From Streptomyces sp. NBC_01454 (GTDB lineage Bacteria; Actinomycetota; Actinomycetes; Streptomycetales; Streptomycetaceae): a stretch of 64,000 nt of DNA. Made by a program: the position numbers and the translations under genes. This document shows, piece by piece, positions 7,335 to 61,120 of the stretch (positions are counted from its first letter, which is position 1; each line of letters begins with the position of its first letter). A model generated the notes under the pieces. That model saw only the letters and a list, made by a program, of their open reading frames with translations, did not search any database and had not been told where the DNA came from. Where the stretch lies: NCBI RefSeq assembly GCF_036227565.1, contig NZ_CP109460.1, forward strand, positions 7,068,001 through 7,132,000. Reading direction: 5' to 3'.

Positions 7335-8747
7335 ATGTCGATGCTCAAGGGCGGCAATGTTCCGGTCCCGGCCCCGGAGGTCCGGGTGGAACTGGGCTGG
7401 CACACCGCCCCGGGGACGCCGGACGTCGATGCCTCCGCGCTGCTGCTGGTGTCCGGAAAGGTCCGCGACGACGGCGACTTCGTCTTCTACAACCAGGCCG
7501 TGCACCGCTCCGGCGCCGTACGCCACGAGGGCAAGCGCCCGGCCGGCGGCGCGGTGACCGACGGCCTCACCGTCGATCTGACCGCCGTCGAACCCGCCGT
7601 GGACACCGTGGTGCTCGCCGCCTCCGCCGACGGCGGCACCTTCGGGAGCGTCCCCGGGCTGCACATCCGGGTGCTGGACGCCGCGGACGGTGCCGAGCTG
7701 GCCCGCTTCGACAGCCAGGACGCCGGGCCCGAGACCGCCTTCGTGCTGGGCGAGCTCTACCGCCGCCAGGGCGCCTGGAAGTTCCGTGCGGTGGGCCAGG
7801 GCTACGACACCGGTCTCGCCGGGCTGGCCACCGACTTCGGCATCAGCGTCGAGGAGCCCGCGCCCGCCCCGGCTCCCGCCGTACCTTCCGCCGCGCCGCG
7901 GCCCGCCCCCGTCATGCCGCCGCCCGCCGCGCCCCCGGCCATGGCGCCCGCGCCGCCCCTGGCGCCGCCGCCCGTGCCCCCTCTCGCGCCCCCGGCCCCG
8001 GCGCCGACGGGGCAGCCGGTGACGTCCGTCCCGCCCCCGCCCGGGCAACCCGCCCCGGCCTCCGTGCCCCCGGCCGTCCGGCTGACCAAGGTGACGCTCA
8101 CGAAGGCCGCCCCCGCCGTCTCGCTGACGAAGCAGGGCGGCACCTCCGGGACGATGCGGGTGAACCTCAACTGGAACAGCGGCACGGCGGGCAAGCGGCT
8201 GGGCAAGACCCTCGGCCGTAAGGCCATGCAGGCCATGGGTGCCCGCGGCGCGCTGCTGTCGCCGTCCGGGGAGGTCGACCTCGACCTGTGCGCGCTGTAC
8301 GAACTCACCGACGGCGCCGCCGGTGTGGTCCACCCCCTCGGCAACAACTTCGGCGCCCTGCACGCCCCGCCGTTCATCCAGCTCGACGGCGACGACCGCA
8401 CCGGCGCCGTCGCGGCCGGCGAGAACATGACCATCAACCTCGACCACCAGGCGCGGATCAAACGCATCCTGATCTTCGTCACGGTCTACGCCGGCGCCCG
8501 CAGCTTCGAAGGCCTGCAGGCGACGGTCACCCTCCAGCCCCAGCACGGTGCCCCCGTCGACTTCACGCTCGACGCCTGCACGGTGCCCTCCAACGTCTGC
8601 GCGCTGGCCCTGATCACGAACACCGGCAGCGAACTCGTCGTCCAGCGCGAGGCCCGCTACCTCGTGCCCGCGCCCGGCGTCAGCCCGCAGCGGACCGTCG
8701 ACCAGGCCTACGGCTGGGGCCTGGACTGGGCGCCGGCCCGGAAGTGA
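7335..8747 (+). CDS. TerD family (tellurium-resistance) protein with two TerD-like domains
   Basis: The 470-residue product starts at ATG 7335 behind GAGGAAGG; an upstream in-frame ATG at 7245 would add a basic tail unlike the family. Residues 1-175 are a TerD/CABP domain with acidic [10 protein letters not shown] and DGLTVDL motifs of the type that bind calcium. A Pro/Ala-rich linker of about 75 residues follows, and residues of about 280-470 form a second TerD-like half with NLNWNSG and [12 protein letters not shown]. TerD proteins take part in tellurite, phage and stress phenotypes with ter cluster partners, but no other ter gene is nearby. The long proline linker resembles other Streptomyces multi-domain TerD proteins. 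Confidence 0.88.
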
Positions 8748-8767
8748 CGGCGGCACCGGGGCGCCGC

Positions 8768-9940
8768 TCAGGGCTTCGGGTACGTCCGGCCCTTCCACGC
8801 CGCGCCGCGCCCCCGGTGGTGCTGCACCGCCGAGTCCACCGTCATCAGCAGATACAGCAGCGCGGTGAACGGCAGCAGCGGAGCCGTCCACCACGGCTGC
8901 CCGTAATGGCGGAGCATCGGCAGATACGTCCCGCACATCACGGCCCAGGCGGCCCCGCCCAGCGCGGCCACCGCCGTCCCGCCGCCGGCCGCACCGGCCA
9001 CCAGCGCGAGGGGCGGCACGAGGTACACCAGCGTCAGGCCGAGCACCGTGCCGAGCAACAGCAGCGGCTGGTGCCGCAGTTGGGCGTAGGCGCTGCGCGA
9101 GACCATCCGCCACAGATCGGCCGGCCGCGGATACGGCCGCACACTGGCCACCCGGTCCGCCAGCCCCAGCCAGATCCGCCCGCCCGCCGCCGCGCGCCCG
9201 CCCCGGCCGGAGTGCTTGACCGCGCGGGCCAGCGTCACGTCGTCGATCACCGCATGCCGGATCGCCTCCGGGATGCCCGCCCGCTCCGCGGCCTCCCGCC
9301 GCAGCAGCACACAGCCGCCGGCCGCCGCCGCGGTCCGCGCCCCGGGACGGTTGACCCACCGGAACGGATACAGCTGCCCGAAGAAGTACACGAACGCCGG
9401 CACGATCAGCCGCTCCCAGCGCGTCACCACCCGCAGCCGTGCCATCTGGGAGACCAGATCCAGGTCCGCCGACCGGGCCGCGGCCACCAACTCCCGCAGG
9501 CTGTCCGGTTCGTGTGCGATGTCCGCGTCGGTCAGCAGCAGATACTCCGGCTCGACGCGCTCGCGCGCCAGCGCGATGCCGTGCCGCAGCGCCCACAGCT
9601 TCCCCGTCCACCCCGGCCCGGGCTCACCGGGCGAGGACACGGTCAGCGGCAGCCCGCCCCGCGCGGCCGCCAGCTCCCGGGCCAGCGCGCCGGTCCCGTC
9701 CGTACTCCCGTCGTCGACCAGGAACACCTCCGCCCGGCCCGGGTACTTCTGCCCGAGCAGCGAGGGCAGGCTGTCCGGCAGCACCGCGGCCTCGTCCCGC
9801 GCCGGGACCACCACCGCGACCGACGGCCAGCGCTCCGGGTCCCGGCGGGCCGGCAGCCGGACGTCCGTCCGCCAGAAGAAGCCCTGCCCCAGCAGCAGCC
9901 ACACCCAGGCCAGCAGCGACCCGGCACCGATCCACTCCAT
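8768..9940 (-). CDS. hpnB: Hopene-associated glycosyltransferase HpnB-like (GT2)
   Basis: The 390-residue membrane protein has an N-terminal helix (about 5-22), a GT2 catalytic domain with VPARDE, LVDDGSTDGT (about 74-83) and LLTDADIAH (about 137-145), and three or four C-terminal helices (LGTVLGLTLVYLVPP, AWAVMCGTYL, PLLPFTALLYLL). This layout and the HYGQPWWTAPLLP segment fit HpnB, a glycosyltransferase often found near hopanoid genes. No other hopanoid gene is visible here, so the acceptor cannot be assigned. ATG 9940 is the best start for a cytosolic-to-membrane N-terminus; a GGGAG lies upstream. It converges with the TerD gene after only 20 bases. Confidence 0.82.
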   Translation of the reverse strand: MEWIGAGSLLAWVWLLLGQGFFWRTDVRLPARRDPERWPSVAVVVPARDEAAVLPDSLPSLLGQKYPGRAEVFLVDDGSTDGTGALARELAAARGGLPLTVSSPGEPGPGWTGKLWALRHGIALARERVEPEYLLLTDADIAHEPDSLRELVAAARSADLDLVSQMARLRVVTRWERLIVPAFVYFFGQLYPFRWVNRPGARTAAAAGGCVLLRREAAERAGIPEAIRHAVIDDVTLARAVKHSGRGGRAAAGGRIWLGLADRVASVRPYPRPADLWRMVSRSAYAQLRHQPLLLLGTVLGLTLVYLVPPLALVAGAAGGGTAVAALGGAAWAVMCGTYLPMLRHYGQPWWTAPLLPFTALLYLLMTVDSAVQHHRGRGAAWKGRTYPKP

Positions 9941-10007
9941 CGCTCCCACGGCACCGCAGTCTGCCGCACCGCACCCGGCGCGCGGCGGCGATCGGCACGG
10001 TGTCCCC

Positions 10008-10062
10008 GGCGTGGCGCCGGCGTGGCGCCGGCGCGGAGCCGGCGCGGAGCCGGCGCGGAGCC
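10008..10062. repeat. Five tandem 11-bp repeats
   Basis: Two copies of GGCGTGGCGCC (10008-10018, 10019-10029) are followed without a gap by three copies of GGCGCGGAGCC (10030-10040, 10041-10051, 10052-10062). The array lies in the 225-base divergent region between the glycosyltransferase and racemase genes. Each unit can pair with its neighbours, so it may form hairpins. Confidence 0.9.
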
Positions 10063-10153
10063 GGCCAGGATGTCGTCCGCCGGCCGCCCCGGGCGGTGGC
10101 TCGTCCCCGCCCGGCATGACGAGCCGGTATGACAAGACGGACGCCTGGCTGAG

Positions 10154-10159
10154 TAAGGT
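10154..10159 (+). promoter_or_regulatory. -10 element of leaderless racemase transcript
   Basis: TAAGGT ends six bases before GTG 10166, with no ribosome site between, indicating a leaderless start. Confidence 0.5.
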
Positions 10160-10165
10160 GTCCGG

Positions 10166-10993
10166 GTGAAGATCGCGCTGATGGACTCCGGGAATGGGCT
10201 GCTCGCGGCGGCCGCCACCATGCGCCGACTGCGGCCGGACGCGGATCTGGTGCTCTCCAGTGATCCCGACGGCATGCCGTGGGGGCCCCGTACGCCCGAG
10301 GACGTCACCGCACATGCGCTGGCGGTGGCCCGGGCCGCGGCCGCGCACCGGCCCGACGCCCTGATCGTCGCCTGCAACACCGCCTCGGTCCATGCCCTGC
10401 CGGCCCTCCGCGCCGCCCTCGAACCGGGCATCCCGGTCATCGGCACCGTCCCGGCGATCAAGCCCGCCGCGGCCGGCGGCGGACCGATCGCCATCTGGGC
10501 CACCCCCGCCACCACCGGCAGCCCCTACCAGCGCGATCTGATCGACCGGTTCGGACGCGACGCGGACGTCACCGGGGTGCCCTGCCCGGGGCTCGCCGAC
10601 GCGGTCCAGCAGGCCGACGAGGCCGCCATCGACGCCGCCGTGGCGGCCGCCGCCCGGCACACCCCCCGGGACCTGCGGGCCGTCGTCCTGGGCTGCACCC
10701 ACTACGAGCTGGTCGCCGAGCGCATCCGTGCCGCCCTCCAGCAGCCCGGCGCCCCGGCCCTCGTGCTGTACGGCTCCGCCGAGGCGGTCGCCGCCCAGGC
10801 GCTGCGCCGGATCGGCGCCGAGCCCGCGCCGGCGGCCGCCCCGACCGGCACCCTGAGCGTGATCCTCAGCGGCCGCCCCGACACGCTCCCGGCCACGGCG
10901 CTCGCCTACGAAGAGGGCCAACTGCTCGCCCGGTCCCCTGCGGACGACGCCGCACCGACGGCCGGCGGGGCCGCCGCCACCGCCCGCCGCTGA
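10166..10993 (+). CDS. Asp/Glu racemase family protein (glutamate racemase-like)
   Basis: The 275-residue product has both catalytic cysteines of the family, in IVACNTAS (near residue 76) and VLGCTHYELV (near 178), and the substrate-binding DSGNG at residues 7-11. This is the MurI-type fold that interconverts L- and D-glutamate for peptidoglycan. It is divergent from typical MurI, with a GTVPAIKPA segment and an Ala-rich tail, and may be a second racemase rather than the housekeeping enzyme. GTG 10166 is supported by the leaderless -10. It stands alone between a divergent glycosyltransferase and a downstream membrane protein. Confidence 0.82.
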   Translation: MKIALMDSGNGLLAAAATMRRLRPDADLVLSSDPDGMPWGPRTPEDVTAHALAVARAAAAHRPDALIVACNTASVHALPALRAALEPGIPVIGTVPAIKPAAAGGGPIAIWATPATTGSPYQRDLIDRFGRDADVTGVPCPGLADAVQQADEAAIDAAVAAAARHTPRDLRAVVLGCTHYELVAERIRAALQQPGAPALVLYGSAEAVAAQALRRIGAEPAPAAAPTGTLSVILSGRPDTLPATALAYEEGQLLARSPADDAAPTAGGAAATARR

Positions 10994-11074
10994 CGCCGGC
11001 CACGACGCCGCGCGCGCCGCGACCCGGGGCGTGAAGGACGCGTCCGACGCGCTGCCCCAGGGTGCAAAGACGCG

Positions 11075-11080
11075 TACGCT
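11075..11080 (+). promoter_or_regulatory. -10 element of leaderless membrane-protein transcript
   Basis: TACGCT ends seven bases before ATG 11088, which also selects that ATG over one 57 bases upstream. Confidence 0.5.
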
Positions 11081-11087
11081 GCGTCTC

Positions 11088-11705
11088 ATGAGGGACCACC
11101 CCCACGAGGGGGCAGCCGCCCCCGACAGCCAGGGCCCCACCGACGGCGCCGACAGCCCGGCGCGCCCCGCCGGCGGCTCCCACGCGGAGCTCCCCGAGGT
11201 CTGGCACGGCAGTGCCACCAACCGCATCCAGTGGCTGCTGGCCGCGATCGGCGCCGCCTGTCTGGCCCTGGGCATCGAACTCGCCGTCGACAGCAACTGG
11301 ACCTCGGGCCTGGCGCCCCTGGTGATGTCGGTGGTCGGCTGTGTCGCGGCCGGCCTGTTGGTGCTCTTCGGCACGCTCGCCTTCGTCCATGTCGCGGTAC
11401 GCGTCGACAAGGAGTATCTGGAGGTGCGGTGCGGGCATATAGGGGTGCCGCGCCGCCGGATCCCCCTGGAAACCGTCGTCGGCGCCGATTTCACCCCGCA
11501 GGTCACGCCCCGCCACTGGGGCGGCTGGGGCTACCGCTGGCGCCCCGAACAGGGGACGGCCGTGGTCGTCCGCCGCGGCGAGGGCGTGATCCTGCGGCTC
11601 GGCGACGGGCGGACCTTCACCATCACCGTCGATGACGCGGAGGTCGCCGTGCGGGTGATCCGCGGGCGGCTCCGCCCGCGCAAGGGGACCCCGGCGGGCG
11701 CCTGA
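11088..11705 (+). CDS. Two-helix membrane protein with PH-like cytoplasmic domain
   Basis: The product is 205 residues from ATG 11088. An acidic/Pro N-terminus is followed by two membrane helices at about 48-68 and 74-98 (IQWLLAAIGAACLALGIEL; LAPLVMSVVGCVAAGLLVLF). The rest reads like a bacterial pleckstrin-like domain: VRVDKEYLEVRCGHIGVPRRRIPLETVVGA, then a GWGYRWRPEQG turn and GRTFTITVDDAE. It resembles DUF3093-like proteins of actinobacteria, but I am not sure of the family. The leaderless promoter suggests an independent transcript. Function unknown. Confidence 0.72.
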   Translation: MRDHPHEGAAAPDSQGPTDGADSPARPAGGSHAELPEVWHGSATNRIQWLLAAIGAACLALGIELAVDSNWTSGLAPLVMSVVGCVAAGLLVLFGTLAFVHVAVRVDKEYLEVRCGHIGVPRRRIPLETVVGADFTPQVTPRHWGGWGYRWRPEQGTAVVVRRGEGVILRLGDGRTFTITVDDAEVAVRVIRGRLRPRKGTPAGA

Positions 11706-23027: not shown

Positions 23028-23195
23028 GCGTGCGGGGGAGGGCGCGGTGGGCGGCGCAAAAGTTTTTCAACCCGCCACCCATCCATGGGGGTTGTGGCTC
23101 CGAATCACGGCTGATGCCTCGCTGAGGTGTTGCTTCGAACCCGGACGACGCGCGGTCCCCCCTCCTCCGCGGAGGCCGCCGGAAAAGGAACGAAC

Positions 23196-24032
23196 GTGAT
23201 AGCCAAGCGCACCAGCCGACTCGCCGTACTCGTTGCTCTGCCCGCCGCCCTGGCCCTCACCGCGGGTGCCTCGTCCCCGGCCGTCGCCGAGGGCAACGGC
23301 GCGTACCAGATCAACCTGTCGCCGCTGAACAACTCCGGCTCCAAGGGCACGGCGATGCTCAGCCTCAAGGGCAACCAGCTGACCGTGAAGATCGAGTCCG
23401 AGGGGCACGTACCCGGACAGCCCTCCGCCCAGCACCTCCACGGCTCCACCGACGGCCATGACTTCCACTGCCCGGACGCGAGCGCCGACACCAACCGCGA
23501 CGGAGTCCTCACCAACACCGAAGCCACGGTCGACTACGGCAACATCAACATCTCGCTCACCACCAAGGGGCCCACGGACGCCATGGGCAGCGGCCTCGCC
23601 GTCGACCGCATGCCCACGGCCGACGCACAGGGGAAACTCTCCTACGAGCGCACGATCCCCGTCTCCCAGGCGGTGATCGACCACATCAAGGATCTGCACA
23701 TCGTGCAGCACGGCATCGACCGCAACCACAACAACAAGTACGACTTCCAGGGCGCGGGCAAGAGCGAACTCGATCCCAAGCTGCCCCAGGAGGCCACCGC
23801 CCCGACCAACTGCGGTGAGGTCAGGGGCGCTGCGGTGGGATCCATTCCGGTCGGCGGTGTCGAGACCGGGACCGGGCCCGCCGAGGAGAAGGGGGTGCCG
23901 GCCGCGGTGCTCGGTGCCGGGGGAGTCGCTTTCGTGGCGTTGACCGGGGTGCTGGCCTTCGTGCGACGGCGCCGGGGCGTGCTCTTCACCGGGCGGACCG
24001 TGCGGAGCGGGAGCAACGGGGGCGCCGCGTGA
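23196..24032 (+). CDS. CHRD-like secreted surface protein with C-terminal anchor
   Basis: The 278-residue product begins at GTG 23196 behind AAAAGGA. A signal peptide ends near residue 31 (SSPAVAEG). The body has the CHRD-like pattern, with GSKGTAMLSLKGNQLTVKIES, QHLHGSTDGHDFHCP and DLHIVQHGIDRN, rich in His and Asp. After a linker comes a membrane helix (GVPAAVLGAGGVAFVALTGV) and an Arg-rich tail. There is no canonical LPXTG motif. It overlaps the class F sortase by four bases (stop TGA and start GTG), so the sortase may process or anchor it, or a partner. Confidence 0.82.
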   Translation: MIAKRTSRLAVLVALPAALALTAGASSPAVAEGNGAYQINLSPLNNSGSKGTAMLSLKGNQLTVKIESEGHVPGQPSAQHLHGSTDGHDFHCPDASADTNRDGVLTNTEATVDYGNINISLTTKGPTDAMGSGLAVDRMPTADAQGKLSYERTIPVSQAVIDHIKDLHIVQHGIDRNHNNKYDFQGAGKSELDPKLPQEATAPTNCGEVRGAAVGSIPVGGVETGTGPAEEKGVPAAVLGAGGVAFVALTGVLAFVRRRRGVLFTGRTVRSGSNGGAA

Positions 24033-24727
24033 GCCGCGTGAGTCGTGTGAGCCGCCGGAGTGAGGACAGCGTGCGCACCGCCGGCCGCCGGGGCCGCCGT
24101 GCCACCGCGTGTGTGATCGCCGCGGCAGTGGCATCCGTGCTCGTCGCCGGGTGCGGCGGGCAGGACGCGCCGCCACGGTCGGCCCCCGTGGAACAGCCGG
24201 CTCCGGGCGGCGGTCAGGCGTCCCACGATGGTGCGCCCGGGGGAGACGCAAGCGGGAAGCCCGCGGCCGCGATGCCCAAGTCGGCTCCGGAACGGCTCTC
24301 CATCCCCGCGCTCCAGCTCTCCTCCTCACTGGAGTCGCTGGGCCAGCACAAGAACGGCGCCATGCAGACCCCCCGGGACCCCGACAAGGCGGGCTGGTAC
24401 GAGCCGGGGCCGACGCCCGGCTCGCAGGGGCCGGCCGTGATCGCCGGACATGTCACCTGGAACGGCAAGCCGGCGGTGTTCCACGCGCTGTCGAAGATGA
24501 AGGCCGGTGACGCGATCGAGGTCACCCGGCAGGACGGGAGCACGGCGAAGTTCACCGTCGACCGCGTCGCCCAGTACCCGAAGAACAAGTTCCCGACGCT
24601 CGAGGTGTACAAGAACCTCGATCACGCCGGTCTCCGCCTGATCACCTGCGGCGGCCAGTACGACCAGGGCAAGCACTACTACCCCGACAACCTGGTGGTG
24701 TTCGCCAGCCTCACGGGCAGCGCGTAG
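24029..24727 (+). CDS. Class F sortase
   Basis: The 232-residue protein has an N-terminal signal with a lipobox-like LVAGC (Cys near residue 42), a Gly/Pro spacer and a sortase domain. The catalytic histidine is in AGHVTW and the cysteine in RLITCGGQYD, typical of class F sortases in actinobacteria. Class F enzymes lack a defined partner motif in most genomes. The start overlaps the upstream CHRD-like gene, implying coupled translation. The usual catalytic arginine is not obvious in DNLVVFA, so structure should decide which residue fills that role. Confidence 0.88.
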   Translation: MSRVSRVSRRSEDSVRTAGRRGRRATACVIAAAVASVLVAGCGGQDAPPRSAPVEQPAPGGGQASHDGAPGGDASGKPAAAMPKSAPERLSIPALQLSSSLESLGQHKNGAMQTPRDPDKAGWYEPGPTPGSQGPAVIAGHVTWNGKPAVFHALSKMKAGDAIEVTRQDGSTAKFTVDRVAQYPKNKFPTLEVYKNLDHAGLRLITCGGQYDQGKHYYPDNLVVFASLTGSA

Positions 24728-24749
24728 CCGCGACCGGCGAGCGAACGGC

Positions 24750-24790
24750 CGGCGGCCCGGCGCCCTCAGCCGAGGGTGACCGGGCCGCCG
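24750..24790 (+). terminator. Terminator after the sortase
   Basis: CGGCGGCCCGG (24750-24760) pairs perfectly with CCGGGCCGCCG (24780-24790); CCCTC and GAGGG form an inner stem. It lies 22 bases past the sortase stop. Confidence 0.75.
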
Positions 24791-25327
24791 TCTCCCCTGA
24801 ACGTCGAAGCGGGGCAGTATTCGCGGCTTGTCCGGAATCTTTCGTTCAGTCATTGCCGTCCTGGCATTCAGCAGAGAGATTCAGCCAATTGGGATGCCCT
24901 CTTGGTCAATGTCGGGGGGTCGTCTTCACGGTTCTCCGGGCGGCAGGGTGTGAACAGAAGTTGAATCCCAGGTCAGGGTATTGATCGGAGTCACCGGATC
25001 CCGGAATTTTTGGGGACGGTGCCTGCGGTGAGACCTTCGGCGGTGCCTGATACGCCGGTCCGTCCCGGAGGCAGCGCAGGTCACAGGGGCGCGGGCGGAC
25101 CCGGAACGGACTGAACGGTTCCCTTAACTCGCTTTTTACAGTTGACAGTTGGGAGTGGCGGGTCCCAAGATCCGTCCGTCGATTCACACCGCGGACATCA
25201 ACTCGACGAGTGGAGAGTTCGGCAGACGCGGTATGGCGGGACGCATTCATGGGCGGAAAAAACGTTCGGTGCCACTGAGTCCACTCGATCCCTGTCGCCG
25301 CTCTTTCGCATACTCAAAGGAGAACTT
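24791..25327. other. Long leader/intergenic region before the thiG-like operon
   Basis: From the sortase stop to the next start is 600 bases, part of it the terminator above. The middle (24800-25000) is less GC-rich than the flanks. A promoter-like TTGACA at 25142-25147 with CAAGAT at 25166-25171 (18-base spacer) would give a leader of about 150 bases. I checked for a TPP riboswitch and did not see its conserved core. No gene is supported. Confidence 0.5.
25142..25171 (+). promoter_or_regulatory. Candidate promoter of the thiG-like operon
   Basis: TTGACA (25142-25147) and CAAGAT (25166-25171) are separated by 18 bases and lie about 160 bases upstream of the thiG-like start. The -35 is perfect; the -10 is only fair. 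Confidence 0.4.
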
Positions 25328-26095
25328 ATGTCAACGGCTGCCCTGGGCACTGCTGTTACCGCTGAGCCCTGGCTCTCTCTCCGCGGTCGCGCATTCCGGT
25401 CCCGGCTCATCCTCGGCATTGAGCAGTACACCGACCCCACCCTCGTCAGCGAGGTCCTGCGCAGCGCGGCCTGTGATGTCTTCATCACCACCTTCGACCT
25501 GGAGCAGACCAAGCCCAGCCTGCTGATGTCGGACCTGGACGAGGCCGTCGGGCTCGATGACTACGTGTGGATCGGCACCACGTCCTTCGCCCGCTCCCAG
25601 CAGGACGCGCTGCTCACCGCGCGCCGGCTGCGGGACTCCTACGGCATCGACATCATGAAGCTCGATGTACGCCCCTCGGACAACCTGCCGCACAACGCGC
25701 AGACCATCACGGCGGCAGCGGAGCTGATCGCGGAGGGCTTCGACGTCCTGCCGTTCATCCTTCCCGACCCGGCCACGGCCGTCGCGCTGGAGAAGGCCGG
25801 CTGTGCCGCCGTCCGCATCATGTGTTCGCCCGTGGCCAGTGCCCGTGGTGTGGTGGACGAGCGGGCGGTGCGGGAGACCATGGCTGCCGTCTCCATACCG
25901 GTGGTCCTGGAGGGTGGTCTGGGCACTCCCGCCCAGGTCGTCCGCGCGATGGAGCTCGGTGCCGACGCCGTACTGGTCAACACCGCCGTGGCGCAGGCTC
26001 CTTCACCCACCAAGCTCGCGGAGTCGATGCGGCTGGCGGTGGAGGCCGGGCGTCTCGCGGCCGACCAGGGCCTCGTCGGCCCGCTCGACAAGTAA
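25328..26095 (+). CDS. ThiG homologue, probable sulfur-inserting enzyme (BexX-like)
   Basis: The 255-residue protein aligns with thiazole synthase ThiG along its length, from FRSRLILG through MELGADAVLVNTA to RLAVEAGRLAADQG. The Schiff-base lysine is kept as Lys111 in DIMKLDV. Several ThiG features differ: the active-site KLE is KLD, the VDAG-type aspartate is Glu195 in VLEGGLGTPA, and the phosphate loop usually reading PIGSG is PVASARG. BexX of the BE-7585A pathway is a known ThiG homologue that makes 2-thiosugar phosphate using a Lys at a near-identical position and sulfur-carrier proteins. Here a sulfur carrier, a phosphatase and an exporter follow, and no thiamine gene. ATG 25328 follows AAAGGAG. 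A sugar-phosphate substrate is inference. Confidence 0.85.
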   Translation: MSTAALGTAVTAEPWLSLRGRAFRSRLILGIEQYTDPTLVSEVLRSAACDVFITTFDLEQTKPSLLMSDLDEAVGLDDYVWIGTTSFARSQQDALLTARRLRDSYGIDIMKLDVRPSDNLPHNAQTITAAAELIAEGFDVLPFILPDPATAVALEKAGCAAVRIMCSPVASARGVVDERAVRETMAAVSIPVVLEGGLGTPAQVVRAMELGADAVLVNTAVAQAPSPTKLAESMRLAVEAGRLAADQGLVGPLDK

Positions 26096-26115
26096 GGCAC
26101 AACGGAGGTATCACC

Positions 26116-26868
26116 GTGCAGTTTTCTGGCGTGCTGTTCGACATGGACGGCGTCCTGGTCGATACGGACCAAGCCATCGCCGACCTGTGGAACCAGCTGG
26201 CCTCGGAATACGGACTGACCATCAGCGAACGGGACTTCGCGGCCCATGTCTACGGCTGCGTCCCCGAGCACACCGTCGAGACCGTGTTCGCCCCGCTCGC
26301 GCCGCCCGACCGGGCGAAGGTCTTGACCCGGGTGCGTGAGTCCGAGCCCGGCCTTGCGTTCACGCCGGTTCCCCATGCCTCCGAGTTGGTGCACGACCTG
26401 GCCGGTGCGGGTGTCCCGCTCGCCCTCGTCACCGGGGCCTCGGCCGCCCGAGCGGACCGCGCGCTGCGGACGCTCGGGCTGGCGGGACTCTTCGGCACCA
26501 CCGTGACCTGGGGTGAATCCGCCCGCGGCAAGCCCGCGCCGGACTGCTATCTGCTGGCTGCCCGCCGCCTGGGCATCCCGCCCGCCGTCTGCCTGGTCTT
26601 CGAGGACACCTCCGGCGGGGTGCGTGCGGCCACCGCGGCCGGCGCCACCTGTGTCGCGGTCAGCCGGCTCGACCCGGCGCCGCTGCGCGCGAGCGGGGCC
26701 CGCCATACCGTCCCGGGCTTCGAGGCGGTGTCGTTCCGCCGGCAGGCGACCGGCGCGGTGCTCAACGTGGCGGACCAGGAGGACCTGCACATCGGCTCCA
26801 CCGCGGGGCACCGGCCGGTGACCCCGACCACGGCAACCCACACAGAAGGGGGCTCACCATGCCGGTGA
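26116..26868 (+). CDS. HAD-superfamily phosphatase/phosphomutase (subfamily IA)
   Basis: The 250-residue protein starts at GTG 26116 with ACGGAGG upstream. It has HAD motif I DMDGVLVDTD, motif II LVTGAS, motif III lysine in RGKPAPDCY and motif IV EDTSGG, with a helical cap of the beta-phosphoglucomutase/sugar-phosphatase type. The enzyme should act on a small phosphorylated substrate in the cytoplasm. Position between the ThiG-like enzyme and the sulfur carrier suggests it dephosphorylates or isomerises the pathway intermediate. The C-terminal 45 residues are an unusual polar extension, and the gene overlaps the next by ten bases. Confidence 0.88.
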   Translation: MQFSGVLFDMDGVLVDTDQAIADLWNQLASEYGLTISERDFAAHVYGCVPEHTVETVFAPLAPPDRAKVLTRVRESEPGLAFTPVPHASELVHDLAGAGVPLALVTGASAARADRALRTLGLAGLFGTTVTWGESARGKPAPDCYLLAARRLGIPPAVCLVFEDTSGGVRAATAAGATCVAVSRLDPAPLRASGARHTVPGFEAVSFRRQATGAVLNVADQEDLHIGSTAGHRPVTPTTATHTEGGSPCR

Positions 26869-27137
26869 CAGTCCGGATTCCCACGGTCCTGCGCTCCTAC
26901 ACGGCCGGCGCGACGGAGGTGTCGCTGAACACCGGTACCGTCGGCGAGGCGTTCACCGCGCTCGAGGGCGACTTCCCGGGAATCTGCGCACGCATCCTGG
27001 ACGACGACGGGAAGCTGCGCCGCTTCATCAACGTCTACGTGGAGGACGAGGACATCCGCGCGGCCGACAGCCTGCGGACGGCCACCCCGGACGGATCGAG
27101 CATCACCGTCATTCCCGCCGTCGCCGGAGGCTGTTGA
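26859..27137 (+). CDS. MoaD/ThiS-family sulfur carrier (CysO-like), ends Gly-Gly-Cys
   Basis: The 92-residue protein is a ubiquitin-fold sulfur carrier of the CysO/MoaD type, with VTVRIPTVLRSYT, RRFINVYVEDEDIR and SITVIPAVAGGC. Sulfur carriers work as C-terminal Gly-Gly thiocarboxylates made by an adenylating enzyme; here a Cys follows the di-glycine, so a JAMM-type protease of the Mec or QbsD kind would have to trim it, or the Cys is part of a different mechanism. No E1-like or protease gene is in this operon, so the shared cellular set may serve. RBS AGAAGGGGG precedes ATG 26859. Confidence 0.88.
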   Translation: MPVTVRIPTVLRSYTAGATEVSLNTGTVGEAFTALEGDFPGICARILDDDGKLRRFINVYVEDEDIRAADSLRTATPDGSSITVIPAVAGGC

Positions 27138-27140
27138 CCC

Positions 27141-28409
27141 ATGACCGCCCCGCGACGACGCGGCCCCACCGCCCCTCGCGGGACGGCCGAGGCCGGCCCG
27201 TCCGATCCCACCGCCCGCCGTGCCGGGCCGGACTTCCGGCGTGATCGCATCACCGCCCTGGGGTACACCAGCCTGGCGGCCTACGCCTACTGCCTGTACG
27301 CCCTCGCCCCCTTCCTCACCCTTCTCCGGCGTGACCTGGACTTCAGCTACCTGGTCATGAGCCTGCACTCCACCACGTTCGCCGCCGGCAGTGTGCTGTC
27401 CGGTCTCTTCTTCACCCAGGCGCTGCGCCGCTTCGGCCGGCACCGGCTGTTCTGGCTGTCCGTGATCGGCACCGCATGCGGCGCCGTCCTGCTCGCCGTC
27501 GGCAGCACCGTCGCGTTCACCCTCGCCGCCACGGCCCTGCTGGGTGTCACCGGGCCGATGCTCCAGACGTCCAGCCTGGCGCTGCTCTCCGTCCACCATT
27601 CCGCGCACCGGGACCGGGCGTTGGTGGAGGCGAACGCGACCGCGAGCCTGGCCGCGGTCCTCGCGCCCGCCCTGATCGGTTCGCTGGGGGGCACGGACAC
27701 CGGCTGGCGCGCGGGCCTGACGCTGCCGGTCGTGGCCTTCGTCCTCCTGTACTTTCTGGGCCGGGGCCGGCCCTTGCCCGATCGGGGCCCCGCCGCCGGC
27801 GCCGTGCGACAGGGCCGCTTGCCCGGCCGCTTCTGGCTGCGTTCCGCCGCTCTGGGGGCCGCGGCGGGGATCGAGTTCGGGACGGTCTTCTACGGGGCGC
27901 CCCTGATGGTGAGCCGCCTCGACCTCAGCATCAGCCATGCCGCCACCCTCATGACCCTCTTCGCCGTGGGCATCCTGATCGGGCGCACGGCGGGCAGCCG
28001 GCTGGTGAACGACCAGGGCAAGGCGCCCCGGTTGCTGACCGGCTCCCTCCTGCTCACCGCGGCGGGACTGGGCCTCTTCTGGTCCTCGCACGCGCTGGTG
28101 CTGTCCTGCGGTGCGCTGCTGGCCGCGGGAGCGGGGGTGGCCAATCTCTTCCCGCTCAGCTTCTCGCACGCCATCGCCGCCGCGCCGGACCGCTCCGACC
28201 TCGCGGCCGCCCGTAACCAACTCGTGGTGAACTCCGCGATCATGGCGGCGCCGCTGGCGCTGGGCGCACTGTCCGACCGGGTCGGTGTGTCGGCCGCGTT
28301 CGCCGTGCAGGCCGTGCTGATCGTCGCGGCGCTGCTCCTGGTCACCGTCGACAGATCGGCCGCGTCGGGGGGCGCGGGCCGTGAGCCGCTTCCGGCGGAC
28401 GGGGGCTGA
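27141..28409 (+). CDS. MFS transporter, probable exporter of the operon product
   Basis: The 422-residue integral membrane protein has about 12 predicted helices, with the first after a 35-residue Arg/Pro-rich cytoplasmic tail (ALGYTSLAAYAYCLYALAPF), and a central loop near residue 210 (GRGRPLPDRGPAAG). The MFS motif-like FTQALRRFGRHRLFW occurs between helices 2 and 3. It starts three bases after the sulfur carrier stop, so it is translationally linked. As last gene of the operon it most likely exports the product or gives self-protection. Confidence 0.87.
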   Translation: MTAPRRRGPTAPRGTAEAGPSDPTARRAGPDFRRDRITALGYTSLAAYAYCLYALAPFLTLLRRDLDFSYLVMSLHSTTFAAGSVLSGLFFTQALRRFGRHRLFWLSVIGTACGAVLLAVGSTVAFTLAATALLGVTGPMLQTSSLALLSVHHSAHRDRALVEANATASLAAVLAPALIGSLGGTDTGWRAGLTLPVVAFVLLYFLGRGRPLPDRGPAAGAVRQGRLPGRFWLRSAALGAAAGIEFGTVFYGAPLMVSRLDLSISHAATLMTLFAVGILIGRTAGSRLVNDQGKAPRLLTGSLLLTAAGLGLFWSSHALVLSCGALLAAGAGVANLFPLSFSHAIAAAPDRSDLAAARNQLVVNSAIMAAPLALGALSDRVGVSAAFAVQAVLIVAALLLVTVDRSAASGGAGREPLPADGG

Positions 28410-28490
28410 GCTGTGCCGGCCCGGCCACGGACTGGGGGTAGCCCGCGCCGGCAGGCCACGGCCGGGGGCTGACCCGCCTCGGCCCGGCCG

Positions 28491-29609
28491 CTACCGCGGG
28501 GCCTCGGAGGGGGCCGCGATCGCGATGGCGGCCGCGTCGTCGCCCAGGGTGCCGCCGGCGTAGCGGAGCAGGTCGTGGCGGAGCCGGCGCACCAGGGCCG
28601 TGGGGTCGGTCTCGTTCCAGGACGTGAGGCGCTCGATCAGCGGATAGAACGTGCCGGTGTGGTCGCGCGCCTCGATGACCCCGTCGGTGTGGAGCAAGAG
28701 CAGATCGCCGGGCGAGAACCCGAACCGCTCCACCCGGAAGTCGCTCTCCGTGGCGGCGCTCAGGCCCAGAGGGAGCGCGGGCTCGGCGACCTCCAGCGCC
28801 TCGACGGTGCCGTTCCGCAGCCGCAGTGGCGGCGGATGCCCGCAGTTCACCATCTCGATGAACGGGCCGTCGCGGTGGACGTCGACGACCACGGCGGTGA
28901 CGAAGGACTCCGCGGTGTCGGGATCGGTGCCGTCGAGGTGGGTCGAGTTCCAGTACGCGGAATTGCCCAGGTGCGCCACGATGCCGGGCAGCGGAAGGTT
29001 GCGGTAGGCGGACCCGCGGAAGGCCCCGACCAGCACCGTGGCCTCCCCGACGGCGGACAGTCCCTTGCCGCGGACATCACCGACGACCAGCCTGATCGCG
29101 CCCGGGGCGGGCACCGCCGCATACAGGTCACCGCCGATCTGGGCCTCGGCCTCCGCCGCCAGATACATGGACGCGATCCGCAGCGGTCCGGCCCGGTGGG
29201 GCAGCGGCCGCAGCAGTACCTCCTGCGCCGCGGCGGCCACCGACCGTATTTGGTGCAACTGCCGTTCGCGCCGGTCGCGGAGATGGCGGAATACCGTGAC
29301 GAGGACGGAGATCACGATGAGGGCGGCGATCTGGGCCTGATGGTTCGCGGTCAGCAGGCCGCCGTGCAGCTGGCCGATGAGGACCTGGGCCGCCACAGCC
29401 AGGACGCCGACCGCGCCGGTGACACCGGGCCCGGCGAACGACGCGGTGATCGCGGGCGCCGCCACCAGGAAGGGCCCCAGGTGGATGGTCGTCGGGCTGT
29501 TGATGTCGATCACCGTGATCACCGCGATGAGCACGAGCGGGAGGGCGATCAGCCCACGGCCCAGCCGCCAGGGTCCGCCGGGAGTGGTGACAGCGCGCCG
29601 GACGCTCAT
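28491..29609 (-). CDS. Membrane-bound SpoIIE/PP2C-type serine phosphatase
   Basis: The 372-residue protein has four or five N-terminal helices (about 17-125), then a SpoIIE catalytic domain (about 145-372) with metal-binding motifs GGDLY, GDVRGKG and LGDDAAA all intact. Such phosphatases usually dephosphorylate STAS-type anti-anti-sigma factors; candidates include the STAS protein at 49.8 kb, but no direct link is visible. ATG 29609 has a near-usual RBS. It converges on the MFS gene with 81 bases between. Confidence 0.88.
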   Translation of the reverse strand: MSVRRAVTTPGGPWRLGRGLIALPLVLIAVITVIDINSPTTIHLGPFLVAAPAITASFAGPGVTGAVGVLAVAAQVLIGQLHGGLLTANHQAQIAALIVISVLVTVFRHLRDRRERQLHQIRSVAAAAQEVLLRPLPHRAGPLRIASMYLAAEAEAQIGGDLYAAVPAPGAIRLVVGDVRGKGLSAVGEATVLVGAFRGSAYRNLPLPGIVAHLGNSAYWNSTHLDGTDPDTAESFVTAVVVDVHRDGPFIEMVNCGHPPPLRLRNGTVEALEVAEPALPLGLSAATESDFRVERFGFSPGDLLLLHTDGVIEARDHTGTFYPLIERLTSWNETDPTALVRRLRHDLLRYAGGTLGDDAAAIAIAAPSEAPR

Positions 29610-29794
29610 ATCTCTTCCCTACACCTGTCCCGCCCCCGGCGCCCGGCAGACCCGGTCGGCCGGGCGACGCAGCGTGACCGCCCGGGAACGGCGGGGTCAT
29701 GGCCGGCTGATCGCCGGGGCGCCCGCTCGGCCGCCGCCGTCAACCGCCATACTGCCTGCGATCTTTCTCCCGGCTCCGAAGGGAACGTCGCGAC

Positions 29795-31006
29795 GTGTCC
29801 TCCTCCACCCCCTCCCTCCCCCTCGCCCGTACCGGCGTCGTCATCGTCGGCGCGGGCCCGGCCGGGCTCACCGTGGCGAATCTGCTGCGCGCCGCCGGGG
29901 TCGACTGCGTGGTGCTGGAGGCGGAGAGCCGGGAGTTCATCGAGCAGCGGCCACGGGCCGGATTCATGGAGGAGTGGGCGGTGCGTGCCCTGGCCCGGCA
30001 CGGGCTCGCCGACCGGCTGCTCGAACGGGCCGCCACCCAGGGCGAGTTCGAGTTCCGCTTCGACGGGGAGCGGCACACCGTGCGGACGGCGGAGCTGTCG
30101 GGACGGCGTCACTTCGTCTATCCGCAGCCGCTGTTGGTCACCGACCTGCTGGCCTCCTACGCCGACACGGCGGGCGGCGACGTGCGCTTCGGCGTGCGGG
30201 AGGTGCGGCTGCACGACATCGACGGCGACCGGCCCGCGGTGTCGTACACCGACCCGGCGAGCGGCGAGCGGCACCGGATCGGGTGCGACTTCATCGCGGG
30301 CTGCGACGGCGCGCGCGGGGTCACCCGGGCGGCCATACCCGACGACCGCACGGTCCTCACCCGCTACGACCACGGTGTCGCCTGGCTCGCCCTCCTCGCC
30401 GAGGCGCCGCCGTCCGCGGACGGCGTGATCTTCGGCATCCATGAGCGCGGGCTGGGCGCCCATATGGCCCGCAGCCCCGAGGTCACCCGCTACTACCTCC
30501 AGGTCGCGCCCGGCGAGGACGCCGGCAACTGGTCGCACACCAGGGTGTGGGACGAGCTGCGCACCCGGCTCGCCGCCGAGGGCGCCCCGCCGCTCGCCGA
30601 AGGGCCGCTGCTCGAAAAGGTGGTCCTGGACATGCACAACTACGTGGTGGAGCCCATGGTGTACGGCCGCCTGCACCTGGCGGGCGACGCGGCGCACCTG
30701 GTCGCGCCGATCGCCGCGAAGGGCATGAACCTCGCACTCCATGACGCCCTGTTGCTCGGTGACGCGCTGATCGCGCACTACCGGGGCGACGACAGCGGTC
30801 TCGCCGGATACTCGCAGGCATGTCTGCGGCGGGTCTGGCAGTACCTGGAGTTCTCGCAGTGGCTGTCCGAGGTGCTGCACGGCGCCTCCTCCGGTGACCG
30901 CTTCCGGGCGGGTACGGCGACGGCGCGGCTGCGGCGGCTGCTGGGTTCCGAGTCTGCGGGAAAGGCGTTCGCCGGGCTCTACTTGGGGGAGAAGGCCGAC
31001 CTGTGA
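29795..31006 (+). CDS. pobA: FAD-dependent 4-hydroxybenzoate 3-monooxygenase-like
   Basis: The 403-residue class A flavoprotein has the Rossmann GAGPAG motif (about 19-24), the DG motif in GCDGARGVTR (about 168-177) and GDAAHLVAP near the C-terminal third, in the order of PobA. The N-terminal ESREFIEQRPRAGFME and HYYxxxP-type residues (RHFVYPQPLLVT) match 4-hydroxybenzoate 3-monooxygenase, which gives protocatechuate. No pca genes are adjacent, so catabolic context is missing. GTG 29795 is the start. Identification is from motif order and overall similarity, without an alignment. Confidence 0.82.
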   Translation: MSSSTPSLPLARTGVVIVGAGPAGLTVANLLRAAGVDCVVLEAESREFIEQRPRAGFMEEWAVRALARHGLADRLLERAATQGEFEFRFDGERHTVRTAELSGRRHFVYPQPLLVTDLLASYADTAGGDVRFGVREVRLHDIDGDRPAVSYTDPASGERHRIGCDFIAGCDGARGVTRAAIPDDRTVLTRYDHGVAWLALLAEAPPSADGVIFGIHERGLGAHMARSPEVTRYYLQVAPGEDAGNWSHTRVWDELRTRLAAEGAPPLAEGPLLEKVVLDMHNYVVEPMVYGRLHLAGDAAHLVAPIAAKGMNLALHDALLLGDALIAHYRGDDSGLAGYSQACLRRVWQYLEFSQWLSEVLHGASSGDRFRAGTATARLRRLLGSESAGKAFAGLYLGEKADL

Positions 31007-58220: not shown

Positions 58221-61120
58221 GCCCTGCGGACGGCCGCGCATCGGGGGCGCCCGGGCCGGACGAGCTCGACGTACGGCGAGTGGTCCAGGTCGTCATCACC
58301 CGGCGCGGAGGCGAGGAGCGGCGCGGTTCGGGTTACCGCGTGAGCGGGGATACGGTACTCACAGCCGCGCATGTGGTGCGGGACGCGGTCTCGGTCACGC
58401 TGCGCTTTCTCACCGAGGACGGTGACGTAACGGAGCTGTCCGGTGAGGCGGAGCCACTGTGGGCGGACTCCGATGTCGATGTCGCGGTGCTCAAGATCCC
58501 GAACGACGCGGGCAGCAGCGGGCTCCACGCCGCCGAGGTCCTGCCGGTGCGGTTCGGCCTCATCACCCAGCCGGCGGATTGCGAAGCGCTGGGGTTCCCC
58601 AAATTCAAGCTACGCCCCGATATCGCATCGTCGGAGCTCAACAGGATCACCTGGTTCCGGGATTCCCACCATGCGCAGGGCAAGACCACGCCGTGGGCGG
58701 ACCTGCGTACGGGCACCCTGGAGATCTCCGTGGGCGCTCCGGGGCCCGATCCGGAGAGCCGTTCCCCGTGGGAGGGGATGTCGGGAGCCGCGGTGTGGAG
58801 CGGTGGGTGCCTGATCGGAGTGGTCAGCGCGCATCACCTCACCGACGGAGCCGGCAGGCTCACGGCGAGCCGGGTGCAACGCTGGTACAAACGCCTCACC
58901 CAAGCCCAGATCGACGAACTGGGTGAGCTGATCGGCCTGCCGGCCCGCGCGGTCCACCTCACGCGGCTCCCACCGCCGCCGCCACATCCACCGCTGGCGG
59001 AGGATGATCCGGCCGAGGCCCTCGCCGGCGAGGTGTCCAAGCAGTGGCGTAAGGAGGAGGAGCAGCGGCGGGTGCACGACCCGTTCCCGCTCCCCGTGCG
59101 CTTCCGGTGCACCGACCGGGATGTCGTCGATCACTGGGCCAACATCCGCAAGCTCCCGCGCAGGCTGGCTGCGGAGCGCCTCCCGCTGGACGGTGAACTC
59201 GACCAGATCGTGGACGCGTACACCTCCGTCCCGTCCTGTCGGTTGGTGGTGCTGGGTGAGGCCGGGTCGGGCAAGTCGATTCTGACCCTGCGTTTCCTCG
59301 TCGACTGGCTCGATGCCCGCACCCCCGGCGACCGGGTACCGGTGATCTTCGGCCTGGGTTCCTGGGATCCGGCCGCGACTTCGCTGCGCGACTGGATGTG
59401 CGCCCAGCTGGTGCGTGACCACCCCTTCCTCGCGGCTCCCGCCGCACGCGGAGGCAGCCTGGCCCGCGTCCTGCTCGACACGGGCAAGATCCTGCCCGTT
59501 CTCGACGGCTTCGACGAGATCCCCAGCGGCCTGCACGGTATGGCGCTCAAAGCGCTCAACCAGGCCACCACCATGCCGCTGTTGCTCACCAGCCGCCCCG
59601 ACGAATACACCAGGGCCGTCAACGGCTCCGAAGATTCCGACGTGCTCACCGCCGCCGCAGTCATCGAGTTGGAGGGCCTCACCGTAGACGACTACGCCGA
59701 CTACCTGAGGCGCGCCAGCCGGACGATCAGAGGCGGCGGCGCGGACCGTACGGTATGGGATGCCGTCCTGGCACGGTTGCGCGAAGGGCCCTACACCCTC
59801 GGCACGGCGAACCTCGCCGAGGTGCTCACCACCCCGCTCATGGTCTCCCTGGCCCGCACCATCTACAGCGACGCTCCCGGACGCGATCCCGGAAAACTGC
59901 TGCACTTCCCCACGCCCGAAGCCCTGCAGGACCATCTCCTGGCCGCATTCGTCCCCGCCGTCTACAAACCCGCGCCGAATGACGATCGTGACGCCCACGG
60001 TTCTCATCACCGCCGTCACTGGACGCCCCAACGGGCCCAGCACTGGCTCGGCTACCTCGCCGCGCACCTGGAGCAACTCGAGACCCACGACCTCGCCTGG
60101 TGGCAACTGGGCACCACGATGCGCCGTTCTTCGCGCATGCTGGTGATCGGGTTCCTCTCCGGGATGGCTTTGGGGGTGCCGACCGGGATCGGGAACCTGC
60201 CCGTGGACTTGGTCGCGACCGAGAATGGGCCCGGGTTCGCGGTCGTGCGGGGGTTTTTGGTCTGGCTCCTGCACGGGCTGGTGGCCGGATTGGTGTTCGG
60301 GTTCGTGTACGAGTTCGCGCCCAGAGGGGCGGCGTCCAAGCCGTCGACTCTGCGCATACAGATCTTCGGTGAGACCCGGCGCAATGGTTCCGAGATCGCC
60401 CGGAGGTTCATGCTGGGGCTCGCGTTCGGGGTGCCCACCGCAGTCGTGCTGGAGCTCATGGACAGATGGGTCGTCGGGCCGCTGGGGTTCGACGACGGAC
60501 TCGGCGGCGGGCTCAGGGGGGCGTTGCTGTTCCCGGTGGAGCTCGGTTTCGGCGCCGGAATCGCGCTTGCCGTCATGGCGTGGCTGGAAACTCCGATTGA
60601 CACCACATCCGCTATCAGCGCCTCGGACCTGTTGAGGACGAACCGCAAGAACGCATTCGTCCATATGCTCGTGTGGTTGCTCGTGCTCGGGGTCCCGGCC
60701 GGGATCGCCATCGGCCTCACGCCCGGCCAGGTAGGCAGGTTCGCGTCCGGGCCCGTGCTCGGGCTGCTGGCCGGGCTCGTCTTCGGGATCGAGGCCGCGT
60801 TCGGGGGCGGTCTCGGGTACGGGCTGAGTTTCACCGCTTGGGGGCAGTGGGTAGCCCTGTCGCGTATGTGGTTGCCGCTGACCCGGTGTCTGCCCTGGGC
60901 AGTGATCGCTTTCCTGGATGACGCCCATGATCGAGGCGTGCTGCGCAAGGCCGGCGCGGTCTACCAATTCCGCCACGCTCGGCTCGAAGCCCATCTGGCC
61001 CACGTCTACCGGTCGCGCCAGGACCGCACCGGCCGCCGAGTTCACCCGGTCGGCAATCCGGAAACCATGGGAGAGCGGACGAGCGTCGTCATGGACACGG
61101 TGATACCCGACAGGCGTTGA
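58217..61120 (+). CDS. Trypsin-like protease / NACHT NTPase / membrane-segment fusion (STAND-type conflict protein)
   Basis: The 967-residue protein has three parts. Residues of about 20-235 are a trypsin-like protease with all catalytic residues: His52 (TAAHVV), Asp88 (DVDVAVLKI) and Ser189 (GMSGAA). Residues of about 295-600 are a NACHT-type NTPase with Walker A LGEAGSGKS (Lys353), Walker B LPVLDGFDE (Asp430) and arginine in LTSRPDE (Arg460). Residues of about 630-900 carry about six membrane helices such as GFLVWLLHGLVAGLVFGFVYEF. Such proteins are innate-immune-like: the NTPase senses a threat and releases the protease. GTG 58217 overlaps the Trypco2 gene. The membrane part suggests action at the envelope (inference). 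Confidence 0.88.
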   Translation: MSPADGRASGAPGPDELDVRRVVQVVITRRGGEERRGSGYRVSGDTVLTAAHVVRDAVSVTLRFLTEDGDVTELSGEAEPLWADSDVDVAVLKIPNDAGSSGLHAAEVLPVRFGLITQPADCEALGFPKFKLRPDIASSELNRITWFRDSHHAQGKTTPWADLRTGTLEISVGAPGPDPESRSPWEGMSGAAVWSGGCLIGVVSAHHLTDGAGRLTASRVQRWYKRLTQAQIDELGELIGLPARAVHLTRLPPPPPHPPLAEDDPAEALAGEVSKQWRKEEEQRRVHDPFPLPVRFRCTDRDVVDHWANIRKLPRRLAAERLPLDGELDQIVDAYTSVPSCRLVVLGEAGSGKSILTLRFLVDWLDARTPGDRVPVIFGLGSWDPAATSLRDWMCAQLVRDHPFLAAPAARGGSLARVLLDTGKILPVLDGFDEIPSGLHGMALKALNQATTMPLLLTSRPDEYTRAVNGSEDSDVLTAAAVIELEGLTVDDYADYLRRASRTIRGGGADRTVWDAVLARLREGPYTLGTANLAEVLTTPLMVSLARTIYSDAPGRDPGKLLHFPTPEALQDHLLAAFVPAVYKPAPNDDRDAHGSHHRRHWTPQRAQHWLGYLAAHLEQLETHDLAWWQLGTTMRRSSRMLVIGFLSGMALGVPTGIGNLPVDLVATENGPGFAVVRGFLVWLLHGLVAGLVFGFVYEFAPRGAASKPSTLRIQIFGETRRNGSEIARRFMLGLAFGVPTAVVLELMDRWVVGPLGFDDGLGGGLRGALLFPVELGFGAGIALAVMAWLETPIDTTSAISASDLLRTNRKNAFVHMLVWLLVLGVPAGIAIGLTPGQVGRFASGPVLGLLAGLVFGIEAAFGGGLGYGLSFTAWGQWVALSRMWLPLTRCLPWAVIAFLDDAHDRGVLRKAGAVYQFRHARLEAHLAHVYRSRQDRTGRRVHPVGNPETMGERTSVVMDTVIPDRR

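Follow-up and report, generated by a model that had tools for sequence, protein, structure and literature searches.

What does a ThiG-like enzyme do in an operon that has no thiamine gene beside it? The question is raised by four genes in a stretch of 64,000 nucleotides of Streptomyces sp. NBC_01454 (the window, to whose positions coordinates refer unless another locus is named). In an initial annotation, they had been described as an operon for a ThiG-like enzyme, a HAD phosphatase, a sulfur carrier and a major facilitator superfamily (MFS) exporter, directing the synthesis of a secreted thiosugar-like or other thio-metabolite. The operon appears to encode a variant of the pathway of BexX, the thiosugar synthase of BE-7585A biosynthesis in Amycolatopsis orientalis. 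It stands alone, brings along a capped carrier of its own together with a probable phosphatase and a transporter, and is rare and kept as a unit. The elements are the following.

25328..26095, + strand: BexX-type, ThiG-like synthase (255 aa; Pfam ThiG, 182 bits; Lys111)
26116..26868, + strand: HAD-superfamily enzyme, probably a thiosugar-phosphate phosphatase (250 aa; Pfam HAD)
26859..27137, + strand: dedicated CysO-like sulfur carrier of the ThiS family (92 aa; Pfam ThiS, 37.0 bits)
27141..28409, + strand: MFS transporter, putative exporter (422 aa; Pfam MFS_1, 126.3 bits)
25142..25171, + strand: candidate promoter TTGACA-18-CAAGAT (boxes kept in loci L004, L005 and L007 of other genomes)

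The family of the ThiG-like enzyme

Compared with the sequences of solved structures, the protein scores 272.7 bits against BexX and 121.6 bits against ThiG, and in both trees it groups with BexX, outside ThiG, with support of 100/100. At 35 columns that are invariant in nine ThiG proteins, and that were picked to separate the groups, it has the ThiG letter nowhere (0/35). Lys111, KLD, Glu195 and PVASARG are all present as first annotated, and Lys111, Asp113 (of KLD) and Glu195 are invariant in the ten aligned BexX-like rows. Since BexX itself (PDB 4n6e/4n6f) has the catalytic lysine, KLD, a glutamate for the aspartate of ThiG and the PVAS-x-RG loop, these residues are to be considered as family marks. 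The assignment as a BexX-like enzyme and not a thiazole synthase is thus supported by sequence, residues, tree and structure comparison, and a position inside housekeeping ThiG, which the initial annotation had named as the outcome that would speak against it, is found in neither tree.

The enzyme shares with ThiG the fold and the Schiff-base lysine, while differing from it in the separating columns, tree position and partner genes. It might still be imagined as a second thiazole synthase or a thiamine salvage gene, for which the Pfam ThiG match speaks. This is highly improbable: the genome already has a ThiG of 357.8 bits within a thiO-thiS-thiG locus about 0.94 Mb away, and the tree support just given places the protein outside ThiG. 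Beside the operon no thiamine gene was found, as first annotated. A housekeeping ThiG identity was rejected on the same grounds. A second high-scoring ThiG (346.9 bits) does occur in one Streptomyces genome (G794:C1:5497914-5498645).

Operon structure, occurrence and partner genes

The four genes run in one direction and are as tightly packed as first described, with 20 bases between the BexX-like and HAD genes, a HAD/carrier overlap of 10 bases and 3 bases between carrier and MFS genes. Position 25142, at which the feature had been started, is no gene start; it is the first T of the TTGACA box (25142-25147), which is followed by an 18-nt spacer and CAAGAT (25166-25171). A gene start at that position was set aside in favour of ATG 25328, with AAAGGAG ahead of it, which is most likely the start judging from the sequence; the residue numbering of the initial annotation agrees with this 255-aa form. 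The single promoter that had been proposed stands in so far as the boxes are present and recur, at 17-18 nt spacing, upstream of every one of the four four-gene loci, whereas a strict sigma-70 consensus scan reported no site there. Furthermore, these loci share an unchanged stretch of 13 bases, GTTGACAGTTGGG, even in L004 with its otherwise much-changed leader. No RNA element was found in 24700-28600 with Rfam at E<=0.1, and no TTA codon (bldA control) in the four genes. The GC content is 68.5-73.9% for the four genes, 72.1% for the window and 62.0% for the leader; foreign origin by composition was considered and dropped, the figures not being telling.

All four genes, the MFS gene included, are found in the same order in Streptomyces sp. 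ISL-10 (L004), S. sioyaensis (L005) and S. kronopolitis (L007), so that co-occurrence in other genomes, on which the initial annotation had also staked its proposal, is indeed found. Flanks common with the window lie on both sides in L007, only downstream in L005 and on neither side in L004. Two further loci have the BexX-like/HAD pair and no carrier match, with identities of 77% and 65% in Streptantibioticus silvisoli (L006) and of 53% and 51% in Streptomyces sp. SID9727 (L008). Among 392 Streptomyces genomes, the BexX-like gene occurs in five (E<=1e-40) and the HAD gene in three (E<=1e-30), all of them among the five. With the own genome left out, both genomes with the HAD gene are among the 4 of 391 with the BexX-like gene, for which the chance is about 8e-5, uncorrected for relatedness. 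In plasmids, the operon's HAD gene has no match at E<=1e-30.

At wider range, the enzyme is also rare. A scan of the family gave 2 of 394 genomes at E<=1e-50, the own genome and one with a protein at 78% (probably the L006 species), and in a scan of the class at E<=1e-36 only one genome besides the own one matched, out of 394, with a protein that is a ThiG by residues and tree. In the profile scan of the phylum, 11 of 168 passed E<=1e-50; apart from the own genome, all of these belong to one actinobacterial family (f60), and the three of these ten that were taken into the tree (L107, L108 and L113) have a high BexX-side profile score, yet are placed with ThiG. Viral contigs contain no relative of the protein. 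Matches to the flanking SpoIIE gene in 120 relatives are, outside the own locus, at most 64% identical and likely paralogues, and therefore no empty site is demonstrable.

BexX-like proteins seem to be of two types, OtsA-partnered and HAD-partnered, because the partners split in this way across loci. In genomes G085 and G155 (loci L020 and L021) a GT20 (OtsA-like) gene lies near the BexX-like gene, and on two Streptomyces plasmids (L018, L019) the BexX relatives have an OtsA-like gene and stand beside aromatase/cyclase genes. The enzymes of these four loci resemble the one studied here (52.8-53.3%), their neighbour being an OtsA-like glycosyltransferase instead of a HAD enzyme. Support for the OtsA/BexX group is 98/97 in both trees, the own partner gene of BexX lying outside the loci compared.

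A further relative on the BexX side is found on a Klebsiella oxytoca plasmid, where it is annotated as a hypothetical protein. Its best solved relative is BexX (160.4 bits; best ThiG 110.1 bits), and at 34 columns it has the letter of the Streptomyces protein or of BexX in 17 and that of the window genome's ThiG in 2. In the tree it is placed on the BexX side with support of 100/100, although its branch is long and was flagged as unsure by the program. Its genes are arranged as follows.

L106, 4505-8223: PTS EIIA-man, carrier-like, ThiF, BexX-like and HAD genes, then a convergent DeoR regulator

The carrier-like protein (86 aa) ends in AGG, scores 17.8 bits against ThiS, below the cut-off of 22.5, and has no match among solved structures up to E 1; the HAD protein is 30-33% identical to the Streptomyces ones. 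The same row exists on a second K. oxytoca plasmid (L115), where an IS3 element interrupts the BexX-like gene, and at E<=1e-40 these two are the only matches among 72,556 plasmid records. The block was not found by DNA in E. coli genomes, nor was a relative of its BexX-like protein in viral contigs; eight phage records match that protein, with identities of 28.7-30.3%, and half of these records carry the annotation ThiG. Two phyla thus hold the same functions side by side, with sugar-linked neighbours in Klebsiella, and this is the strongest support for the order of carrier to sugar to phosphatase.

Some observations concern neighbouring genes. An annotated anti-phage gene lies near the L106 row. 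In L008 (8001-15966), genes for two ABC transporter proteins, for a 519-aa protein that matches no family and for a GT2 glycosyltransferase come after the BexX-like and HAD genes; a larger thiosugar product is possible there. The recognised neighbours of the pair in L006 include an HTH regulator and a thioesterase and, next to the pair (7911-11521), genes for a Dyp peroxidase and FTR1/imelysin iron uptake. The direct flanks of the operon encode a sortase, a GVDTG protein, a SpoIIE phosphatase and a hydroxybenzoate hydroxylase-like protein. The class F sortase gene (193.8 bits), directly downstream of the gene with the GVDTG sorting signal, probably forms a sortase and substrate pair with it (23127-24727), and the SpoIIE-type and 4-hydroxybenzoate 3-monooxygenase-like genes (28491-31006) also follow the operon in L005 and L007. 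Farther away, the window encodes a 915-aa NACHT-domain protein (58373-61120).

Sulfur supply and the proposed fate of the sugar

The operon carrier is of the CysO/ThiS type. Besides its ThiS score, it matches Mycobacterium tuberculosis CysO with 86.6 bits and the CysO crystallised with BexX with 73.3 bits, and it ends in two glycines and one cysteine (Gly90-Gly91-Cys92, 27126-27134), as do the carriers of L004, L005 and L007. According to PMC6006322, a JAMM protease is typically required where a carrier has an MV or single-C cap, and the thioacid products are lost when the gene for this protease or that for the MoaZ-type activator is mutated. A JAMM gene and a 392-aa MoeZ-type ThiF-rhodanese protein are both present in the genome of the window. 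Two further carriers exist there: one with a GGC end, 59% identical to the operon carrier and adjoining a PALP-family gene, and one (45%) whose tail is longer and whose gene is flanked by a Prok-JAB gene and a further PALP gene. Close relatives (79-98%) of the former are found in all seven other genomes searched. Including the operon copy, there are three carriers in the genomes of L004 (G030), L005 and L007, and two in those of L008, G085 and G155. The locus of the GGC-ending carrier outside the operon (L024, 7848-12356) also has a GT20 (OtsA-like) gene close to the PALP-family gene, which by eye is threonine-synthase-like.

On this basis the operon would, with reasonable probability, constitute a self-contained BexX-type thiosugar pathway. 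A JAMM protease encoded elsewhere would trim the C-terminal cysteine from the carrier, and the MoeZ-like protein may then convert the exposed GG into a thiocarboxylate; in the BexX system, the carrier is reportedly activated in this way. The BexX-like enzyme would bind a sugar phosphate, of which glucose 6-phosphate is the likeliest, as an imine at Lys111 and transfer the sulfur to give a 2-thiohexose 6-phosphate, a step predicted from its family membership. The HAD enzyme would remove the phosphate and, in what is the weakest step, the MFS protein would export the thiosugar or a simple derivative.

The preference for glucose 6-phosphate is known from BexX and only presumed here, and the clade of this enzyme differs from the OtsA-type clade at T35, E59, Q60, Y79 and A222. 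Another sugar or keto-phosphate (a pentose or heptulose) might therefore be taken, giving a different thio compound by the same carrier chemistry, which we consider unlikely.

The HAD enzyme, first annotated as a phosphatase, could alternatively be a phosphomutase, turning the thiosugar 6-phosphate into a 1-phosphate; enzymes encoded elsewhere would then activate this and couple it to a second molecule, and the MFS protein would export the conjugate. To this we assign a low probability. The protein stays below the curated cut-offs of the subfamily (107.3 of 153.35) and of the equivalog beta-phosphoglucomutase (77 of 189.4 bits). The distal phosphate residues are not kept either: R49, S116, K117 and N118 of that enzyme align with Pro50, Ala110, Ala111 and Arg112, with gap placement there uncertain. 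Nor is a nucleotidyltransferase or glycosyltransferase recognised among the genes directly flanking the operon. The phosphatase role is favoured over that of a mutase on these sequence grounds.

Several observations weigh against the self-contained thiosugar route. The structure model of the HAD enzyme gives a tie between a phosphatase and beta-phosphoglucomutase, and replacing R49 alone in the latter costs only a modest part of its rate, as stated in PMC9171722. The carrier is not obligatory, since L006 and L008 have the pair without it; the L006 genome has three carriers, the third (44%) on a different contig from its BexX-like gene. With L008 included, support for the HAD-type group is weak, at 46/26 in one tree and 88/81 in the later one, and the place of L008 is therefore unsure. 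The operon MFS protein has no match at 1e-3 in the seven other BexX-like loci, some of which have other transporters (MFS in L018, L019 and L021; ABC in L008), and no exporter is recognised beside the L006 pair, whose neighbours are an iron permease and the Dyp peroxidase. Substrate and product are both predicted. Of the annotated route, the enzyme family, the co-occurrence and, as the favoured role, the phosphatase have stood; a free thiosugar as secreted product is a well-founded but tentative proposal.

Comparison with known systems

In the open-licence PMC literature searched, neither a description of this operon nor another characterised thiosugar synthase of the BexX type was found. Like the operon enzyme, BexX has a CysO-type carrier as partner. 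The BE-7585A pathway belongs to a polyketide cluster that includes an OtsA-like gene, whereas no OtsA-like glycosyltransferase or polyketide genes are recognised among the directly flanking genes scanned here. Furthermore, a ThiS paralogue is missing from the BE-7585A cluster according to PMC6225789, unlike this operon with its GGC carrier, HAD and MFS genes; the dedicated carrier is therefore a real difference. PtmS2 and PtmS3 of a platensimycin producer resemble the operon carrier in having residues after the GG, which in PtmS3 is a single C, and they depend on a JAMM protease as well as on an activator of MoaZ type (PMC6006322). Their sulfur goes to a thiocarboxylic acid, while here it presumably goes to a sugar.

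More tentatively, and with somewhat less than even confidence, carrier, BexX-like synthase and HAD phosphatase may be seen as a portable module for thiosugars that has not been described before; it stands free in Streptomyces and is joined by a ThiF of its own on plasmids of Klebsiella. The pathway would end in a small, free thiosugar, acting as an antimetabolite, metal ligand or signal, and not in an antibiotic decoration. With a stand-alone operon and a small predicted product, the enzymatic formation of a C-S bond on a sugar would become testable without a polyketide cluster around it. If the proposal is true, free thiosugars would be suggested as a class of secreted metabolites, and through the corresponding functions on a Klebsiella plasmid, thiosugar chemistry would reach into the enterobacteria.
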